Source of the DNA: Clostridia bacterium
Lineage (GTDB): Bacteria > Bacillota > Clostridia > Oscillospirales > CAG-272
Length of the DNA stretch: 47,528 bases
Assembly (NCBI GenBank): GCA_017456005.1
Contig: JAFTLJ010000066.1
Coordinates: 1 to 47,528 of the forward strand
Direction of reading: 5' to 3'
Part shown: positions 5,053 to 47,528 of the stretch, piece after piece
Layout of the letters: each line of letters opens with the position of its first letter
Position numbering within the stretch: the stretch's first letter is position 1
Position numbers and translations under genes: made by a program
The notes under the pieces: model-generated
Told to the model about the DNA's origin: nothing
Databases searched by the model: none
The model's input: only the letters and a program-made list of their open reading frames with translations

Positions 5053-6990
<1,938 letters not shown>

Positions 6991-13923: not shown

Positions 13924-13952
13924 AGTATACTACATTTTGTAATAAAACGCAA
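13924..13952 (-). promoter_or_regulatory. ymdB-ahcY promoter
   Basis: On the minus strand TTGCGT (13947-13952), 17-bp spacer, TATACT (13924-13929). It gives a leader of about 26 bases that contains the GGAGG site. A second -10-like TATAAT lies at 13915-13920. Confidence 0.65.
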
Positions 13953-13979
13953 GGAATTTTGCAATAATCGGTAAAATTA

Positions 13980-14045
13980 AAAGCCTCCCTTGCGCAAAGG
14001 TAGCGTGACCGAGCTGTAGCGAGACAGGTGGATTTTGAGCATCAA
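13980..14045 (+). repeat. Degenerate GCCTCCC intergenic repeat remnant
   Basis: The stretch starts GCCTCCCTTGCGCAAAGG and continues with TAGCGTGACCGAG. It looks like a worn copy of the GCCTCCC...GGAGG intergenic repeats found in many Clostridia; the matching GGGAGG arm is missing. This is pattern recognition, with no second copy in the window. Confidence 0.4.
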
Positions 14046-14168
14046 AAGACGAAGGAAAACTTATATTTTCTTTTGATTTTTTACGTTCCTTTTAGGTTGC
14101 AGAAATGTTAAGCGCTAAAAAATAGAACATTAAATATTGATTTTGTTAATGATTAAAATTTGTAAACA

Positions 14169-14197
14169 TTGACAAATTATGCACAATGTGTTAAAAT
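14169..14197 (+). promoter_or_regulatory. Consensus promoter of the hairpin RNA
   Basis: TTGACA (14169-14174), exactly 17 bp, TAAAAT (14192-14197). The predicted start, 7 bases on, is G14204, the first base of the long hairpin. Confidence 0.8.
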
Positions 14198-14203
14198 AAA
14201 ACT

Positions 14204-14372
14204 GCCACACAATTAAATACAGTTTTACATTGAATAAGTGTATGTTTTTTTGATAAAAACATATGCTCTTTTCTGCATACTTTCGTACTTGTTCGATGTA
14301 TCTGTATTTGTGTGGCAACAATAAAAAGAGCAATGTGTTTTTTGTGCGTTGTTCAAACACAACGCACTTTTT
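14204..14372 (+). ncRNA. Candidate structured RNA or leader with long hairpin
   Basis: From the predicted start the transcript can fold into one long stem: GCCACACAA (14204-14212) with TTGTGTGGC (14308-14316), ATACAG (14217-14222) with CTGTAT (14302-14307), ACATTGAATAAGT (14227-14239) with ACTTGTTCGATGT (14287-14299) using two G-U pairs, and GTATG (14240-14244) with CATAC (14276-14280), about 33 pairs. A linker leads to a perfect 9-bp terminator-like hairpin (14344-14367) and a T run. The result would be a free RNA of about 170 bases, or an attenuating leader for the gene at 14408. No known RNA family was recognised. 6S RNA was considered but the internal bubble does not fit well. Confidence 0.5.
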
Positions 14373-14375
14373 ATT
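14344..14375 (+). terminator. Terminator/attenuator before the orphan membrane gene
   Basis: GTGCGTTGT (14344-14352), loop TCAAAC, ACAACGCAC (14359-14367), then TTTTTATTT. It lies between the promoter and the gene at 14408, so the downstream gene needs read-through or another promoter. Confidence 0.8.
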
Positions 14376-14407
14376 TCACTTTGCTTACACAAAATAAGGA
14401 GATAAAA

Positions 14408-15322
14408 ATGCATATCACGCCACAAAAATCATCGTTTTACGGAAATGTCAACCATCTTCAACCCCAAGAAGCTCCTGCGGATACAGGAACAGATAACCCT
14501 TTACATTCTTTTGTTGCGCATAATGATGACGATTTATTCCAACTCTTCCGACTCCTCATTCGCCCGTTGCAAGATTTAGAAAATCTCTGTTGCCAAGAAG
14601 AAGAAATAAAGCAACAAAAAATTAAAGCTTACAACGCTATGCATCCCTCGATTTTCTCTACAATACTTACAAGTATTGTAACAACAATTTTCTTATCAAT
14701 TCCTTTCGGAATAATCTTTTCAATTTTATCCAGCATCATCCCATTAGGAGACGGAACGCTCTTTGACGCATTCGATAAATGGGCAGCAGGAATTCCTTTC
14801 ATTGGAACACTCTTGGATTGGGTCACTCCGAGTAAAGAAGGATTACTATGGATTATATTGGGATTCATTGTTTTGATTTTTATGGAATTTATTGTACTCC
14901 CAAATCTCCTCATACTATTTCCAATAACTCTTATTGTCAACATTATTATTCTCATCGTATCTGCCGTAATAGGAAAACGAGAATATAATTCTTGCGTAAA
15001 AACATTAGAAGAATTAAAAGGCAAGATTGATTTTTCGATGGAGCAGTTATCCATTCCGCTCAATTTAGTCCCTCCGAATTATCGTCATAGCGCTGCATTG
15101 ATACATTTTTGCAATAGTTATGCAAATAGACGTGCTTCAACAGTAAAGGAAGCTATAGAGTGTTATGAAACAGATTTACACCGCAAAAAAGTAGAGGATG
15201 CTCAAAACATAATACTTCAAAATCAATTGGAAATAGCGCAGCAAATTCAAAGCCAAAACGACACAATAAACGATTTGCAACAGAGCGTAAAAAAAGTAAA
15301 GAACAAAGTTGACTGGCTATAA
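14408..15322 (+). CDS. Orphan membrane protein with C-terminal coiled coil
   Basis: A 304-residue protein of unknown function. Residues 1-65 are soluble, with a paired-Cys Leu-Cys-Cys-Gln. Three or four membrane segments lie between about residues 75 and 185, separated by a loop containing Pro-Phe-Ile-Gly-Thr-Leu-Leu-Asp-Trp. A soluble region follows with Pro-Pro-Asn-Tyr-Arg-His and Arg-Arg-Ala-Ser-Thr-Val-Lys-Glu-Ala-Ile, a motif seen in several uncharacterised Firmicutes proteins. The last 45 residues form a Gln-rich predicted coiled coil. The start at 14408 is chosen for its AAGGAG site seven bases upstream; an earlier in-frame ATG lies inside the leader RNA. Base composition is clearly AT-richer than the neighbours, suggesting acquisition. 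Confidence 0.85.
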   Translation: MHITPQKSSFYGNVNHLQPQEAPADTGTDNPLHSFVAHNDDDLFQLFRLLIRPLQDLENLCCQEEEIKQQKIKAYNAMHPSIFSTILTSIVTTIFLSIPFGIIFSILSSIIPLGDGTLFDAFDKWAAGIPFIGTLLDWVTPSKEGLLWIILGFIVLIFMEFIVLPNLLILFPITLIVNIIILIVSAVIGKREYNSCVKTLEELKGKIDFSMEQLSIPLNLVPPNYRHSAALIHFCNSYANRRASTVKEAIECYETDLHRKKVEDAQNIILQNQLEIAQQIQSQNDTINDLQQSVKKVKNKVDWL

Positions 15323-15340
15323 GTTTTTCGATAGTATAAA

Positions 15341-15366
15341 AAAAGCAGGTAATACCTGCTTTTATT
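15341..15366 (+). terminator. Terminator of the orphan membrane gene
   Basis: AAAAGCAGG (15341-15349), loop TAATA, CCTGCTTTT, then ATTTG. It lies 19 bases after the stop. Confidence 0.85.
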
Positions 15367-15377
15367 TGTAAAAAATG

Positions 15378-15406
15378 TTGAAAATTTTTAAGTTTTATAG
15401 TAATAT
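15378..15406 (+). promoter_or_regulatory. Toxin mRNA promoter
   Basis: TTGAAA (15378-15383), 17-bp spacer, TAATAT (15401-15406). The predicted start near 15413 places a TCGCA/TGCGA hairpin (15414-15426) at the extreme 5' end of the message, as in many stable toxin mRNAs. Confidence 0.75.
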
Positions 15407-15412
15407 ACTACT

Positions 15413-15502
15413 GTCGCATATTGCGATAGGCTACCACAAACGGTAGGCGGTTGCCCTCCACAGCAGGAGGGTTCTTTTCCCTCCGAGTTCCGCAAGGAGG
15501 GC
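15413..15502 (+). promoter_or_regulatory. Structured 5' leader hiding the toxin ribosome site
   Basis: The leader has stems TCGCA/TGCGA, CTACC/GGTAG, and two alternating CCCTCC/GGAGGG pairs. CCCTCC at 15454-15459 pairs with GGAGGG at 15466-15471; CCCTCC at 15479-15484 pairs with GGAGGG at 15496-15501, which is the ribosome binding site itself. The second CCCTCC could also pair with the first GGAGGG, opening the site, so the leader can switch. Confidence 0.7.
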
Positions 15503-15509
15503 GATGCTT

Positions 15510-15602
15510 ATGAACTACATAACATTGTCCGATTTATTCCAATACACATTGGTGATAATCGGCATCGTACAGTTAATCATCACATTGATAAAAAAGAAAT
15601 AA
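15510..15602 (+). CDS. Type I toxin, small holin-like membrane peptide
   Basis: A 30-residue peptide: a short polar start (Met-Asn-Tyr-Ile-Thr-Leu-Ser-Asp-Leu-Phe), one hydrophobic helix rich in Ile, Val and Leu, and a Lys-Lys-Lys end. This is the plan of the small holin-like/Fst-type toxins of Firmicutes, which insert in the membrane and depolarise it when over-expressed. AAGGAGG (15494-15500) lies nine bases before this ATG; an in-frame ATG at 15504 is only three bases away and less likely. Leader structure, antisense promoter and shared terminator support the assignment. Too short for ordinary gene callers. Toxicity is inferred. Confidence 0.82.
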   Translation: MNYITLSDLFQYTLVIIGIVQLIITLIKKK

Positions 15603-15684
15603 CCGCCCCAGTTCCCCAACTAATGCGGTTAATTTCTTTTAACTAACTTATTTAGGGCGACCGTCTACGGGCAGCCTTTTTTCT
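15590..15684 (-). ncRNA. Antisense antitoxin RNA
   Basis: A minus-strand RNA of about 95 bases is predicted from the promoter at 15691-15719 to the T run after the hairpin at 15601-15630. It is fully complementary to the 3' end of the toxin message, including the last codons. This convergent arrangement with a shared bidirectional terminator is the hallmark of the par/fst and holin-like type I systems, where the antisense RNA blocks translation or triggers decay. Confidence 0.78.
15601..15640. terminator. Bidirectional terminator of the toxin-antitoxin pair
   Basis: AACCGC (15601-15606) pairs with GCGGTT (15625-15630), with an inner GTT/AAC pair. Going right it is followed by AATTTCTTTT, going left by ATTTCTTTTTT, so it can end both transcripts. 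Confidence 0.78.
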
Positions 15685-15690
15685 GTTTTT
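15655..15690 (+). terminator. Second terminator-like hairpin, plus strand
   Basis: GGC...CCG-TCTA-CGG...GCC (15656-15676) followed by TTTTTTCTGTTTTT. It also forms the 5' end structure of the antisense RNA. Confidence 0.6.
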
Positions 15691-15719
15691 ATTATACTTC
15701 TTTTTTTGAAATTTGTCAA
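15691..15719 (-). promoter_or_regulatory. Antisense RNA promoter, perfect consensus
   Basis: On the minus strand TTGACA (15714-15719), 17 bp, TATAAT (15691-15696). Both hexamers match the consensus fully, making it one of the two strongest-looking promoters in the window, as expected for an unstable antitoxin RNA that must be made in excess. Confidence 0.88.
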
Positions 15720-15800
15720 TACAATTTTGATTTTTAGAACGAGTTGTAAAGAATATGTACAAAAAAACTGTCAAAAATACACAGAAAACCAAAAAAAGAC

Positions 15801-15829
15801 TTGTAATATCATAGATAAAATGATATAAT
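15801..15829 (+). promoter_or_regulatory. Promoter of the rhamnosidase gene
   Basis: TTGTAA (15801-15806), 17 bp, TATAAT (15824-15829), followed by an inverted repeat TTGGGAAA-N8-TTTCCCAA (15836-15859) that overlaps the predicted start and could be a regulator's operator. Confidence 0.75.
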
Positions 15830-15835
15830 CCAAAA

Positions 15836-15859
15836 TTGGGAAAGTATAATATTTCCCAA
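15836..15859. promoter_or_regulatory. Inverted repeat, possible operator
   Basis: TTGGGAAA (15836-15843) and TTTCCCAA (15852-15859) are perfect 8-bp arms just after the -10 of the rhamnosidase promoter. Position suits a repressor site; the regulator is not in the window. Confidence 0.5.
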
Positions 15860-15886
15860 ATCTGAAAAATCAAAGGAAAAAACAAA

Positions 15887-18523
15887 ATGAGTCTTAAAAT
15901 TTACGACCTTACGGTGAACTACCTCAAAAATCCGTGCGGCATAGACAGCCTGCCTAGATTTTCTTATAAGGTAAGCTCCGATTCTTTTGGCGATAAGCAG
16001 ACAAAACGCCGCATACGCGTGTATTCCGCCAGCGAAATACTCGCAGAAGTAGACCCCGATGTTTGGGACAGCGGCTGGGTGGAGGACGAAGAAAACGTGC
16101 TCATTCCCTACGAGGGCGGCGCGCTTTCCCCTGTTACCAGATATTATTGGTCCGTGGAAATAGAAACGGCGAGCGGCGAAAGAGCCGGATGCTACGGCGC
16201 TACCTTCGTTACGGGCAAGCTCGGCGAGCGCTTCACAGCCAAATGGATAGCCGCAAGGGGCGCAAACAAAAGAACGGTCGGTGCAAACTACCTCCGCAAA
16301 ACATTCGATATATACAAGGACGTAAAAAGAGCCTATCTCACCATCTGCGGCCTTGGCTACTTTGAAAGCTATATAAACGGTGAAAAAACAGGCGACGACC
16401 TGCTTTCCCCCGCTTTTACATCATACGATAAAGAAACGCTCTATATGCAGTACGACGTAGAGCACCTGTTGCGCAAGGGCGAAAACGTTATAGGCGTGGC
16501 GCTGGGCAACGGCTTCTACAACCACTTTACAGAGGCTAACTGGAACTACGACAGCGCAACGTGGCGTAACTTCCCCAAAATGATATGCGAGCTCAAGATA
16601 ACCTATAAGGATGGCAAAACGGAAACCATCGTTTCCGACACGTCGTGGACAAGCTTTGCGCACGGTCCCATAAAAATGACGGGCATACGCAACGGCGAAT
16701 TTTACGATGCACGCCTTGAGCTCGGCAAATGGACAGAGCCCGGCTACGACGACGACGGCTGGGACGAAACCAAGCTCGGCAAATGCCCCGGCGGCATTAT
16801 GCGCGCGCAGGAAATGGAGCCCATACGCGTTTATAAAAAATTCCCCGCAATACGCAAATGGCAGAGCAAAGAGGGCTGGGTATACGATATAGGCCAGAAC
16901 ATTGCCGGCTACGGCGAATTTGTTATCAAGGGCCGCGCGGGCGATAAGGTTACCTTCCGCTATTCCGACGTGCTCGCAGAAGATGGCGTAGAGCTTGATT
17001 TCAAGGCGCTCGGCTGTTTTGTTCACTCCGGCGATTTCCAGACGGACAGATACACCAAAAAGAGCTACAAGCCCGAAAAATGGCACCCCACGTTCGTCTA
17101 CCACGGCTTCCAGTACATCGAGGTGCTCGGCATAGAAGATAAAGATAATGTTCCCGAGCTCGATGAGGTTGTGGGTGTTGCTATCTGCAACGACGTGGGC
17201 GATATAGGCTCCTTCTCCTGCTCCGATGAAATGCTCAATAAACTGCAGCACCTTTGCAGATGGTCCAGCCTTTCCAATTTTGAATCCATACCCACAGACA
17301 ACCCTCACCGCGAGAAAAACGGCTGGACGGGCGACACATCCCTTTCCTGCGAGCAGATGCTCACAAACTTCGGTACTCGCTGCTTCCTTTCCAAATGGAG
17401 CCGCGACCTTGTGGTTTCCCAGCGCCCCGCGGGTCAGATACCCTGTATAGTTCCCTCCCCGGGCTGGGGCTACTCCGGCCTTATGGGCCCCGACTGGTCC
17501 AGCGCGCTTATCACCGTTCCGTGGTATATCTACCTTTACAATAACGATAAAGAGATTCTTCGCCAAAGCTACGAGGCTATAAAGAAAAATATCGATTTCA
17601 CGCTCTCTATGTGCGAGGATTACGTGCCGAACTACGGCACGGGCGACTGGTGCGCCCCCTTCGACGGCCCTGCTATAGGCGTTAATATGGGCTCTTACAA
17701 ATGCCCTGTAGAGGTTACGGACACAGGCTACCTCTACAATGCGGCAAACACTGTTGTAAAGCTTGCGCACATCTTCGGCGAAAAAGAGGACGAAAAATAT
17801 TATAAAAACCTCGCTCTTACCATCCGCCAGGTGTTCAGAAGCAAATTCTTCGATAAAGAAACGTTCACGGTTATGGGCGATTGCCAGACGGCAACGGGCA
17901 CAATGCTCTTCTTCGAGCTTTACGACACGGAAGAAGAAAAGCAGGGCTTGCTCGCGAAGCTTAAAGAGCAGATCGCTGAAAAGGACGATCACCTCGATTT
18001 CGGTGTGCTCGGCTGTAAATTCGTTATGAACGCGCTCGGCTCCTCCGGCAACGGCGATATAGGCACGAAAATGGTGCTCCAGCGCACGTACCCCGGTGTG
18101 GCAGAGTGGATAAACCGCGGCGCCACGACTCTTTGGGAATGCTGGAACGGCGGCGGTTCGCACAACCACCACATGTTCTCCGACCTTTCTTCGTTTATGT
18201 ATAAATACATCGCTGGCATTTCCCCCGACGAGGCTGAGCCCGGCTTCCGCCACGTTATCTTCCGCCCTGCTATAGACAGCGAGCTCACGAGCGCCCGCGC
18301 GAGCCACGAAAGTATGCTCGGCACGGTGCTCTGCGATTGGTCTAAAGATGGCGAGAGCATCTGCGTTAACGTAGAAGTTCCCTTCGGCGCACACGGCACG
18401 CTCTATTTGCCCGAACGCTTTGCGGGCAAAGCAAAATGCGGCGGCACGGTGCTGGAAGCAAAAGTGGAAAACGGTAAAGCGGTTTACGAATTCGTTTCCG
18501 GTAAATATACCGTTGAAGCTTAA
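15887..18523 (+). CDS. GH78 alpha-L-rhamnosidase
   Basis: An 878-residue glycoside hydrolase of family GH78. N-terminal beta-sandwich domains are followed by an (alpha/alpha)6 barrel from about residue 430 and a short C-terminal beta domain. The catalytic region reads Asp-Asn-Pro-His-Arg-Glu-Lys-Asn-Gly-Trp-Thr-Gly-Asp (Glu as general acid), and the later Thr-Leu-Trp-Glu-Cys-Trp-Asn supplies the base. It removes terminal rhamnose from plant flavonoid glycosides, pectin side chains or bacterial polysaccharides. There is no signal peptide, so substrates must be imported. No transporter or rhamnose catabolic gene is adjacent. GC content is high again compared with the preceding island. Confidence 0.96.
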   Translation: MSLKIYDLTVNYLKNPCGIDSLPRFSYKVSSDSFGDKQTKRRIRVYSASEILAEVDPDVWDSGWVEDEENVLIPYEGGALSPVTRYYWSVEIETASGERAGCYGATFVTGKLGERFTAKWIAARGANKRTVGANYLRKTFDIYKDVKRAYLTICGLGYFESYINGEKTGDDLLSPAFTSYDKETLYMQYDVEHLLRKGENVIGVALGNGFYNHFTEANWNYDSATWRNFPKMICELKITYKDGKTETIVSDTSWTSFAHGPIKMTGIRNGEFYDARLELGKWTEPGYDDDGWDETKLGKCPGGIMRAQEMEPIRVYKKFPAIRKWQSKEGWVYDIGQNIAGYGEFVIKGRAGDKVTFRYSDVLAEDGVELDFKALGCFVHSGDFQTDRYTKKSYKPEKWHPTFVYHGFQYIEVLGIEDKDNVPELDEVVGVAICNDVGDIGSFSCSDEMLNKLQHLCRWSSLSNFESIPTDNPHREKNGWTGDTSLSCEQMLTNFGTRCFLSKWSRDLVVSQRPAGQIPCIVPSPGWGYSGLMGPDWSSALITVPWYIYLYNNDKEILRQSYEAIKKNIDFTLSMCEDYVPNYGTGDWCAPFDGPAIGVNMGSYKCPVEVTDTGYLYNAANTVVKLAHIFGEKEDEKYYKNLALTIRQVFRSKFFDKETFTVMGDCQTATGTMLFFELYDTEEEKQGLLAKLKEQIAEKDDHLDFGVLGCKFVMNALGSSGNGDIGTKMVLQRTYPGVAEWINRGATTLWECWNGGGSHNHHMFSDLSSFMYKYIAGISPDEAEPGFRHVIFRPAIDSELTSARASHESMLGTVLCDWSKDGESICVNVEVPFGAHGTLYLPERFAGKAKCGGTVLEAKVENGKAVYEFVSGKYTVEA

Positions 18524-45240: not shown

Positions 45241-46527
45241 ATGAATGAAATAAGAGAATATGCAGAAAAATTACTTAAATATTTAGATAATGCACCCACG
45301 GCTTTCCAGTCGGTAGACGAGCTTGAAAAAATGCTCGCGGAAGCGGGTGCTACAGAGCTTTGCGAGGGCGCGGAATGGCAGCTCGAAAAAGGCAAGCTCT
45401 ATTATATGAAAAAAGCAGGCACGCAGATTGCCGCTTTCCGCGTAACGGGCGACCCGCGCGAAACGGGCTTCCGCATCGGCGCGGCACATCAGGATGCCCC
45501 GGGCTTCCGCATTAAAACCGTTCCTTCCTCCGTTGACCTCGGCTACGAACGCTTGCTGCTCGAGCAGTACGGCGGCACGCTCGTTCACGGTTGGGTAGAC
45601 CGCCCCTTGGGCGTTGCGGGTTGCGTTTACGTTAAAGACGAAGAAAAAGGCTTCCGCCCCGTAAACGTAAACATCAAAAAGCCCGTGCTCCTTATCCCCA
45701 GCGCGGCTCCCCACGTTAAGAGAGGGCAGAACGACGGCGCTTCCTTCAGCGTACAGAACGAAATGCGCCCCTTCTTTGCCGCTTCCCCGAACGGCGAAAA
45801 AACTTTCCTTAAATATATAGCGGAAGAGATCGGCGTTAAAGAGGAAGACATTCTCAGCTACGAGCTCGCACCTTATGACGCGTCCCCTGCTTGCTTCACG
45901 GGCGTAAACGATGAGTTTATCTCCGTTCCCCGCCTCGACGACTGCGCTATGGCTCACGCTATTATAACTGGTATGTGCGATGCAGGCGAGGACACAGGCA
46001 ACGCTATTGCCGTTATCTTCGACCACGAGGAGATTGGCTCGGGTTCCGACAGAGGCGCGCGTTGCAACACGCTTATGCAGCTTATAGACCGCATTTGCGA
46101 AAAACTCGGCTACACGGTAGAGGATAAATACCGCGCGCTCGCAAACTCTATGCTCTTCTCGGCAGACCAGGCGCACGCCACACACCCCTCCTACCTCGGC
46201 TTGCAGGACCCCCAGCTTAAAGTTAAGCTCGGCGAAGGCCCCGTACTTAAGCTCAACTATAAGCAGAGCTATTCCACTTCTGCGCGCGGCACGGCTTTCT
46301 TCCGCACGCTTTGCGAGAAAGAGGGCATACCCTACCAGATGTTCAACAATAACAGCGACACGGGCGGCGGCGGCACTATAGGCCCTATCCTTTCCGCCAA
46401 CTACGGTGTTTGCTCGGTTGACCTCGGCAACCCCACGATCGCTATGCACGCGGTGCGCGAATTCGGCGGCACAGCCGACGGCTATTATATGGCAAAGCTC
46501 TTCACCGTGTTCTTTATGGGTAAATAA
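45241..46527 (+). CDS. M18 family aspartyl-type aminopeptidase
   Basis: A 428-residue metallopeptidase of family M18. Zinc-binding and catalytic residues are seen in Gly-Ala-Ala-His-Gln-Asp-Ala-Pro-Gly-Phe (His, Asp), Arg-Leu-Asp-Asp-Cys (Asp), Phe-Asp-His-Glu-Glu-Ile-Gly-Ser (Glu pair) and Ser-Ala-Asp-Gln-Ala-His-Ala-Thr-His-Pro; the last His is in Thr-Ile-Ala-Met-His-Ala-Val-Arg-Glu. It removes N-terminal residues, typically acidic, from peptides in the cytosol. Single-gene unit with its own promoter and terminator. High GC compared with the lipoprotein genes on both sides. Confidence 0.95.
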   Translation: MNEIREYAEKLLKYLDNAPTAFQSVDELEKMLAEAGATELCEGAEWQLEKGKLYYMKKAGTQIAAFRVTGDPRETGFRIGAAHQDAPGFRIKTVPSSVDLGYERLLLEQYGGTLVHGWVDRPLGVAGCVYVKDEEKGFRPVNVNIKKPVLLIPSAAPHVKRGQNDGASFSVQNEMRPFFAASPNGEKTFLKYIAEEIGVKEEDILSYELAPYDASPACFTGVNDEFISVPRLDDCAMAHAIITGMCDAGEDTGNAIAVIFDHEEIGSGSDRGARCNTLMQLIDRICEKLGYTVEDKYRALANSMLFSADQAHATHPSYLGLQDPQLKVKLGEGPVLKLNYKQSYSTSARGTAFFRTLCEKEGIPYQMFNNNSDTGGGGTIGPILSANYGVCSVDLGNPTIAMHAVREFGGTADGYYMAKLFTVFFMGK

Positions 46528-46534
46528 TGATATA

Positions 46535-46569
46535 AAAAGGCTGATGATACAGGTCATCAGTCTTTTTTT
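46535..46569 (+). terminator. Terminator of the M18 gene
   Basis: GGCTGATGA / TCATCAGTC stem with TTTTTTT tail, starting 8 bases after the stop. Confidence 0.85.
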
Positions 46570-46637
46570 GCTTAATTGTGAATTTTTTTGTTAACTTTGT
46601 CAAAAATGTGAGTAAAAATCGAATTTTATTATACATA

Positions 46638-46666
46638 TTGACAATACATAAAAAATATGATAAAAT
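46638..46666 (+). promoter_or_regulatory. Promoter of the last lipoprotein gene
   Basis: TTGACA (46638-46643), 17 bp, TAAAAT (46661-46666), TGA before the -10. Confidence 0.8.
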
Positions 46667-46696
46667 TGTAATACCTAAACAAAGGAGGAAAATTGT

Positions 46697-47188
46697 ATGA
46701 AAAAATACATCAAGATAATATCGGCGCTTTTGTGCTTGTGTATTGCGGCTTGCGCTGTTGTTTCTTGCGGCGATACAGAAGAGCCTGTGAATACAGATAT
46801 GTCTAAATCCGCAAATTACGGTAAGATGAGTTTCTTTTATATGGATTCAGAAACAAATGAACCAATATATATATATCCCACCAACAGAGAAGAATTTTTG
46901 GCTATGTGCGATACTATAATCGCAAATAAACCGACTAAGGAAAATACAAAACCCTCCGGCGGCGGCGTGTTTATGGGTTCAAGTTTGAGTGTAGAGGTGC
47001 TTTTTAAAGAGGGCGTGGATGCCAAAACGGAAGTGGGAAAATATGCGTTTGGCAGCAGCTCTAAAATATATAATAAAAATAAGGGCCGTTTAGGGGCGGA
47101 TATAGAAAGCTTCAATTATGAGATATTAGAGGAAATATCAAAAAATGAAAATCTTGAAAAAATAGAAATTAAATATTCTGTAATGTGA
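46697..47188 (+). CDS. Uncharacterised lipoprotein
   Basis: A 163-residue lipoprotein with lipobox Val-Val-Ser-Cys at about 24. The mature part is mostly polar with Pro-Ile-Tyr-Ile-Tyr-Pro-Thr-Asn and a Gly-rich Pro-Ser-Gly-Gly-Gly-Val stretch. No family recognised. A strong AAAGGAGG and a near-consensus promoter suggest high expression. The following terminator (47211-47237) makes it a single-gene unit. Confidence 0.8.
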   Translation: MKKYIKIISALLCLCIAACAVVSCGDTEEPVNTDMSKSANYGKMSFFYMDSETNEPIYIYPTNREEFLAMCDTIIANKPTKENTKPSGGGVFMGSSLSVEVLFKEGVDAKTEVGKYAFGSSSKIYNKNKGRLGADIESFNYEILEEISKNENLEKIEIKYSVM

Positions 47189-47210
47189 GTAAGTCCTACT
47201 TGATAGCGAA

Positions 47211-47240
47211 AAAAGGCTGAATTTTTCAGCCTTTTTCTTT
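47211..47240 (+). terminator. Terminator of the last lipoprotein gene
   Basis: AAAAAAGGCTG / CAGCCTTTTT stem with loop AATTTTT, 23 bases after the stop. The rest of the gap to 47435 is A-rich and holds nothing I can name. Confidence 0.88.
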
Positions 47241-47439
47241 TTAAAATTCAAAAAAACTTTTTTAAAAAATTTATAAAAAACACATCTTTATAAAAACGAA
47301 AAATCCTTTGAATCTCCGCTTTTCTCGTAAAACCCCAAAAACTTATGGTAAAAGTGCCCACCGTAACTGTAGCAAAACAAATCAACAATGGACAAGTTTG
47401 CCAAAGCGAAAAAAACTTAAAAAAAATTCAAAAAAAGCA

Positions 47440-47528
47440 TTGACAAAGAGGAAAGTGTGTGCTATACTAGTGGAGCGCTGTTGAGGAAGCGGCGCGAAAC
47501 GGTCCTTGAAAATTGAACAACTTAAAGA
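47440..47528 (+). promoter_or_regulatory. rRNA operon promoter and 5' leader
   Basis: TTGACA (47440-47445), 17 bp, TATACT (47463-47468), followed by a leader ending in GGTCCTTGAAAATTGAACAA (47501-47520). The TTGAAAATTGAACAA motif is the conserved leader and spacer sequence flanking rRNA genes in Clostridia. The 16S gene should start soon after the window, pointing away from oriC. Confidence 0.85.

Follow-up and report, generated by a model that had tools for sequence, protein, structure and literature searches.

A candidate riboswitch-like attenuator RNA upstream of a membrane protein gene represents an apparently undescribed RNA family of gut Clostridia

Which of the elements crowded into a short AT-rich block of a Clostridia genome belong together, and what does the structured RNA among them do? 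The question is raised by positions 13950-15860 of a 47,528-nucleotide stretch of DNA, referred to as the window (contig JAFTLJ010000066.1 of assembly GCA_017456005.1; GTDB lineage Oscillospirales, CAG-272). The block is bordered on one side by a minus-strand gene for a YmdB-like phosphodiesterase and on the other by the gene of an alpha-L-rhamnosidase, and it contains a repeat remnant, a structured RNA, the gene of a 304-aa membrane protein and a small type I toxin-antitoxin. The original prediction, made from the letters of the window, described the last three as separate units lying side by side and suggested that they were a recently gained cargo. All three units are present, but the RNA and the membrane gene are not independent of each other, the RNA being that gene's leader. 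Sequence comparison indicates that the RNA (14203-14380) is probably a cis-acting, riboswitch-like transcription attenuator of the membrane gene (14408-15322).

The predicted promoter-driven structured RNA was readily recovered. A strong fold extends over positions 14196-14385 (-65.5 kcal/mol, z -8.3), and none of 200 shuffled sequences was equally stable. All elements described in the following lie on the plus strand. An extended -10 promoter at 14169-14197 (TTGACA, 17 nt, TAAAAT preceded by TG) matches at 11 of 12 positions and ends 5 nt before the RNA. The complete RNA matches R1, a covariance model built from 16 copies, with 121.7 bits (E 1.7e-22 in its own genome). Its basal stem P1 is formed by nucleotides 14203-14212 and 14308-14317, as indicated by the fold and by family-wide pairing. 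The upper stem P2 with its loop occupies 14226-14300, where the fold of the window copy and covariation in the family pair 14226-14240 with 14286-14300. Within the apical region, duplex computation and pair covariation identified a 'mid' strand (14255-14268) as the likely pseudoknot partner of a linker at 14328-14342. According to covariation, the same linker can pair instead with the 5′ arm of an intrinsic terminator (14344-14372; 9-bp stem, 6-nt loop and T run), which was recognized by a terminator scan and by its energies. The resulting antiterminator joins 14328-14336 to 14346-14354, its 3′ strand lying within the terminator. Every one of these elements (P1, P2, pseudoknot, antiterminator and terminator) can be formed by the window copy, and the RNA runs directly into the membrane gene with its ATG at 14408.

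Structural analysis was extended to the whole family. A total of 162 hits and five further copies yielded 166 parsed sequences, of which 131 were left after removal of similar ones. The alignment used, which was fitted to P1 and the antiterminator but not to the pseudoknot, comprised 102 copies (101 distinct) taken from 100 selected loci. P1 is near-invariant: 99.0% of its cells were paired in the 101 distinct copies, with changes in both strands at six of its 11 pairs. The sequence of P2 varies freely, yet the stem stays paired. In the 94 of 130 copies with complete, cleanly cut arms, the energy with the own partner was -22.5 kcal/mol compared to -9.6 kcal/mol with swapped partners (z -39.5), and three controls gave z values of -1.1, -0.8 and 0.0.

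The apical strand with its UGGUAAAA core pairs with the linker outside P1, which constitutes the predicted pseudoknot. Own linkers were better partners than swapped ones with a z of -12 (131 copies, 0 of 10000 permutations), and a second run gave a z of -11.0. In the alignment, 14 pseudoknot pairs were paired to 91.9%, and nine of them change on both sides. Cells changed on both sides numbered 231 for P1 and pseudoknot together, as opposed to 67 after shuffling and at most 46 when the pairing was slid. Pairing of the linker with the terminator 5′ arm was likewise indicated by covariation, with a z of -16.5 on non-overlapping segments and of -0.7 in the control (131 copies). Moreover, RNAalifold proposed this antiterminator unprompted. 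Pseudoknot and antiterminator share linker columns 194-206. Because both need the same linker, the two predicted pairings are mutually exclusive. Computed mean energies were -13.7 kcal/mol for the antiterminator and -18.2 kcal/mol for the terminator, which was the stronger of the two in 119 of 129 copies. Energies as comparable as these would suit a switch.

Among the 128 copies with enough flanking sequence (three of 131 were skipped), 117 carry a promoter matching at least 8 of 12 positions, compared to 16 shuffled sequences, and in 111 of these 117 a spacing of exactly 5 nt separates the end of the -10 element from the RNA. The extended -10 element is near-invariant in the position logo, where T and G reach 97 and 96%, and T, A and the final T reach 98%. 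A terminator was detected in 125 of the 128 copies versus seven shuffled ones. Downstream, 109 of 115 eligible copies are followed by a gene that spans 50 or more codons and has a ribosome-binding-site-like string, compared to 54 in the opposite direction, and the start codon lies at a median of 15 nt past the end of the model. The genes themselves are diverse. The 104 downstream proteins scanned contain 62 Pfam families in all, with BspA-type leucine-rich repeats in 19, a zinc ribbon in five and S-layer homology (SLH) domains in four. Nineteen of 123 proteins had been excluded manually, most of them because they were short or truncated or repeated kinds already included; two zinc-ribbon and three AMP-ligase-like proteins were among them, so that these kinds are undercounted. 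A crude signal scan of 122 downstream proteins revealed 27 with a lipobox-like motif and 40 with another N-terminal hydrophobic stretch.

The stems, the pseudoknot, the antiterminator and terminator, the fixed promoter and the leader position are thus supported by sequence evidence, and they can be combined into the following mechanism. Transcription would begin at or beside the base of P1, directed by the extended -10 promoter at its fixed distance. The nascent RNA would fold first into P1 and P2 with the apical loop. If the linker then paired back to the apical loop, the terminator would be left free and the gene would be OFF. If it paired with the terminator 5′ arm instead, polymerase would read into the gene, which would be ON. 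A factor binding the conserved core of P1 and loop, either a ligand or a protein, would choose between the two states. We infer that the pseudoknot state is the OFF state because the pseudoknot removes the 5′ strand of the antiterminator, and that the gene would be induced when the pseudoknot is blocked.

The RNA is by no means confined to the window. A second copy in the same genome (contig C88) precedes an unrelated lipoprotein-like gene. The exact pattern of the two P1 arms occurred 13 times in the 394 genomes sampled from the order, spread over 10 of them, while the reversed pattern used as control was absent. With R1, at E<=0.01 and six candidates scored per genome, 145 of the 394 genomes and 73 of 168 genera gave a match. 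Fuller scoring of eight chosen genomes revealed 1 to 17 matches each (E<=0.001). The richest of them, G189, has about 16 sites, as its 17 matches include one reverse-strand echo and one partial match. In a phylum-wide sample of 398 genomes, which held few genomes of the order and was scored at the stricter E<=1e-5, only the genome of the window matched. In named genome contigs the P1 pattern was found in at least 119 stretches. Among the matches listed there, R1 confirmed 92 of the first 100 and all 19 remaining stretches, and the eight that it did not confirm bear non-Clostridia titles. Several carriers lie outside the order by name, e.g. Hungatella hathewayi and [Ruminococcus] torques, and named Lachnospiraceae also have the RNA. 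Some association with mobile elements is real, since R1 confirmed all 21 pattern stretches on viral contigs, seven of which were left after removal of similar copies. A blastn search with one RNA copy gave no match in phage or plasmid records. Before these counts 41 of 133 and 9 of 49 matches were dropped, all below 50 bits and mostly reverse-strand echoes of the same sites. Altogether 154 distinct RNA copies were read.

Three observations on individual carriers may be added. On viral contigs (L247-L267) and in genomes with Lachnospiraceae names, the RNA is followed by small genes that recur as a set (L172, L176, L226, L248 and L253); one of their products matches PASTA kinases weakly, and two others are conserved proteins. 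A Flexilinea metagenome-assembled genome (JAFRIR01) has the RNA on two contigs (L147 and L215), which may be due to horizontal transfer or to misbinning; Flexilinea belongs to the Chloroflexota. Finally, four of 20 loci (L104, L106, L117 and L120) contain tRNA genes no more than about 0.5 kb away from the RNA; these are possible integration sites.

The gene behind the RNA in the window (14408-15322, plus strand) encodes a 304-aa protein with a hydrophobic middle and, judged by eye, a coiled-coil-like C-terminus. It had been called a membrane protein of no known family, and at the level of Pfam this is correct, no family scoring above cut-off. Matches in NCBIfam stayed below cut-off (VraH_fam, E 0.0029, 17.5 versus 40 bits), and a search of the PDB gave nothing usable (best E 0.034). 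A whole-genome search for the protein returned eight rows including its own, all weak except locus L002 (E 2.8e-29, 25% identity). One of the candidates, L007, was dropped as sensor-kinase-like by appearance. No relative was confirmed by back-translated peptides in genome and viral contigs or by tblastn in phages and plasmids. The protein is characterized by the motif Y-R...N-R-A...K-E-A...Y-E. Five RNA copies precede a protein with a Y-R...N-R...A...Y-E motif, namely those of the window, L181 (the same locus as L090), L208, L173 and L112; the L173 protein lacks most of the hydrophobic stretch. Profile comparison of the window protein and its relatives with the other four gave a probability of 95.0 (E 3.7e-8) over 65 columns. 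With a profile of two sequences the value was only 37.6%, and it rose to 95.0% once four more relatives were added. The putative superfamily link thus depends on a 65-column motif.

Co-occurrence of RNA and protein was compared across loci. R1 was applied to 17 loci carrying either the window protein or a homologue and detected the RNA at three, the window, L268 and L269, of which the last two had been found through the RNA. The other 14 (L002-L006, L008 and L278-L285) gave no R1 match. The pairing of RNA and membrane protein is therefore recurrent but not obligatory.

The setting of the block was analyzed with regard to its history. Nearby open reading frames are presumably dnaN and dnaA. The block had been described as an AT-rich island, and its GC content is indeed 0.34-0.36 in 14001-16000 versus 0.48-0.53 on both sides. 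Comparable dips occur elsewhere in the window, e.g. 0.33 at 46501-47500, so that the block is not unique in this respect. Promoter-like matches across the whole block numbered 10, no excess over the shuffled mean of 8.4. At about 13978-14057 (plus strand) lies the remnant of a dispersed palindromic repeat. Its copies were found in the own genome on contig C82 at 6247-6305 (85%) and 6174-6200 (96%), and in the congener G001 on C75, C21 and C112 (79-93%). In the own genome this repeat adjoins a protein of the same superfamily at two separate places, in the window and at L278:6174-6305.

The locus was read in four genomes of the genus, the own genome and those designated G001, G002 and G003. In G001 the gene of YmdB, of which 227 residues lie on the contig and are 95% identical, is followed by the toxin-antitoxin and then by the rhamnosidase (96%). 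In G002 and G003 YmdB (80 and 88%) is directly followed by the rhamnosidase (81%, 88% over the part compared), and no match to the toxin or the membrane gene beyond chance was present at these loci. Hence, an insert of about 1.4 kb (about 13982-15425), comprising the repeat, with its remnant at the left edge, the RNA and the membrane gene, occurs in the own genome only among the four loci read. No target-site duplication was seen at its ends. A DNA search of two further genomes, G004 and G005, whose loci themselves were not read, gave no match to the block. Since G001 has the toxin-antitoxin but not the insert, and both are absent from G002 and G003, the two look like separate events. The repeat, the RNA and the gene would have arrived together as one insert next to a type I toxin-antitoxin that was already there. 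The proposed recent gain is accordingly supported for the repeat, the RNA and the membrane gene, the same YmdB and rhamnosidase flanks existing without the insert in all three congeners. The insertion site (window 13955-13981) lies just after the probable toxin promoter of G001, and the toxin may now rely on a weaker candidate promoter at 15378-15406 (plus strand, 9 of 12 positions).

As expected, a type I toxin-antitoxin pair could be recognized at 15426-15700, outside the insert. The putative toxin mRNA (plus strand, about 15426-15690) lies at the same site in G001 and shows long 5′-3′ pairing with a z of -7.3. It contains a conserved hydrophobic open reading frame for a peptide of 30 residues (15510-15602). 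A 12/12 promoter at 15719-15691 on the opposite strand would direct an overlapping antitoxin RNA (about 15560-15690, minus strand), whose own fold reached a z of only -2.0. The peptide is identical in G001 (30 of 30 residues) and 70% and 67% identical in two tandem copies in G030. In a DNA search of 97 genomes, the own included, near full-length matches were obtained in G001 (92%) and for the two G030 copies (78 and 77%), and eight other genomes gave partial matches. The tandem pair (L291, G030:C47:34962-35586) belongs to a genome of another genus. Comparison of the toxin with Pfam and NCBIfam gave no match, and the phrog_3488 'holin' family appeared only at E 0.027. Judged by its small hydrophobic toxin frame and the overlapping opposite-strand promoter, 15426-15700 is an ordinary member of the type I kind. 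It resembles the TxpA/BsrG/holin-like systems in the hydrophobic toxin, the long-range folded mRNA and the overlapping antisense promoter, and differs from them in having no Pfam or NCBIfam match. The supposed lack of relatives is not confirmed, given the many RNA copies, the distant relatives of the membrane protein and those of the toxin-antitoxin.

Several findings weigh against a cis-acting switch. The partners of the RNA are so diverse that no pathway points to a ligand, and a fixed promoter spacing is unusual for riboswitches. Two of the 14 pseudoknot pairs fail in 32 and 39 of the 101 copies. Furthermore, the pseudoknot signal is a collective one, as the own linker was the best partner in only one (by row) or three (by column) of 131 copies, with a median rank of 0.18-0.20. 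The 5′ arm of P2 also covaries with the mid strand (z -14.5), and this may reflect one further alternative pairing. One alignment used for the antiterminator had been fitted to that structure; the linker, P2 and non-overlap tests are independent of it. There are also tandem units of promoter, RNA and terminator that stand before a single gene with no open reading frame between them: three at L296:152-720 (+), two at L297:126-613 (+) and two each at L298 and L299 (-). Their stems have diverged, and each unit has its own promoter-like stretch and terminator. Such an arrangement would also fit a stand-alone small RNA acting in trans, with the downstream gene receiving read-through only. We consider this explanation unlikely, as the strong covariation of the antiterminator would be superfluous for a stand-alone RNA and the start codon follows at a short median distance.

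The near-invariance of both P1 arms, and the fixed place of the first arm past the -10 element, could also be accounted for by DNA operators, an inverted repeat about +1 and +105 bound by a DNA-looping repressor, with RNA structure being secondary. The spacing of the arms varies from 77 to 128 nt without helical phasing (R 0.092, p about 0.33, n 131), and P2, pseudoknot and antiterminator all covary, which makes this model very improbable. We give equally little credence to attenuation by a ribosome translating a leader peptide. A ribosome-binding-site-like string with a start and at least eight codons was indeed found in 74 of 131 copies versus 46 shuffled ones, but all 12 examples inspected start in the 3′ half of the RNA (positions 93-134), in seven of them the start is a TTG or GTG codon located within the 3′ arm of P1, in differing frames, and the window copy has no such frame. 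Finally, the block as a whole had been suggested to be one defence or addiction cargo of structured RNA, membrane effector and toxin-antitoxin. Its AT-richness, the recent insertion and the adjoining toxin-antitoxin are in keeping with this idea. In contrast, the toxin-antitoxin of G001 occurs apart from the insert, both are missing from G002 and G003, the RNA precedes unrelated genes elsewhere, and most loci of the protein have no RNA match. Defence families gave no convincing match either, the sole PADLOC match being marginal (CARF_TM, E 9e-4, 17.6 bits, residues 87-276), so that a role in phage defence finds no support and a single module is extremely unlikely. A cis-acting attenuator of the membrane gene is the reading that we prefer.

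With transcriptional riboswitches the RNA shares a conserved 5′ leader fold directly upstream of a gene, a pseudoknot, and an antiterminator and terminator that are predicted to exclude each other and are tied to the fold. It differs from them in the promoter fixed at 5 nt, in the range of its partners and in having no Rfam match. A scan of the window at gathering thresholds against Rfam 15 (4227 families, T-box included) gave no family over the RNA. In permissive scans of the window block, of six loci with copies and of a further 20 loci, no family reached its gathering score over a copy; the only matches above gathering were five nearby tRNA genes. To our knowledge, few abundant bacterial RNA switches are without an Rfam entry. 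The leaders of the type III toxin-antitoxins ToxIN and CptIN also combine promoter, pseudoknotted RNA, terminator and gene. The present RNA does not consist of short tandem repeats, and in place of a single endoribonuclease family its 104 partner proteins contain 62 Pfam families, so that this class was rejected.

Two published riboswitch candidates are similar as well. According to the portion of the source compared, 80 examples of the SLH motif come from Synergistaceae, Clostridia and Negativicutes, and about 60% of them precede SLH proteins (PMC6429828). It is likewise a leader before surface-protein genes in Clostridia, whereas here four of 104 partners have SLH domains; the two are set apart by description, and identity is possible. 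The trpB motif, again in the portion compared, has more than 900 examples in Firmicutes and Fusobacteria, an amino-acid-type ABC transporter as commonest partner and at least two hairpins (PMC11109978). Its variable partner genes and a terminator with the antiterminator in the right shoulder of P1 are similar; host range, commonest partner and the at least two hairpins differ and set it apart by description. The portions compared of these two papers and of PMC8040213 do not describe the RNA, although it may figure among the 3161 candidates of the latter or in another survey.

The RNA apparently represents a large, undescribed family of on/off switches that, in many gut Clostridia, directly precede genes of surface proteins, membrane proteins and mobile elements. 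A wider interpretation is tentative, and we rate its chances somewhat below even: the self-contained cassette of promoter, sensor and terminator may define a novel class of riboswitches whose pseudoknot strand also serves as the antiterminator strand, and it may have spread as a plug-in switch that places dozens of unrelated surface, secreted and mobile-element genes of one gut-dominant order under one shared signal. More than a third of the genomes sampled from the order gave a match to the RNA, and many named members of the order come from gut and rumen. Its well-supported fold offers a testable three-strand switch, and the fixed promoter makes the transcript start predictable, so that in vitro transcription and ligand screens are feasible at once. 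Identification of the signal would reveal which cue prompts these poorly cultured bacteria to express their surface proteins.

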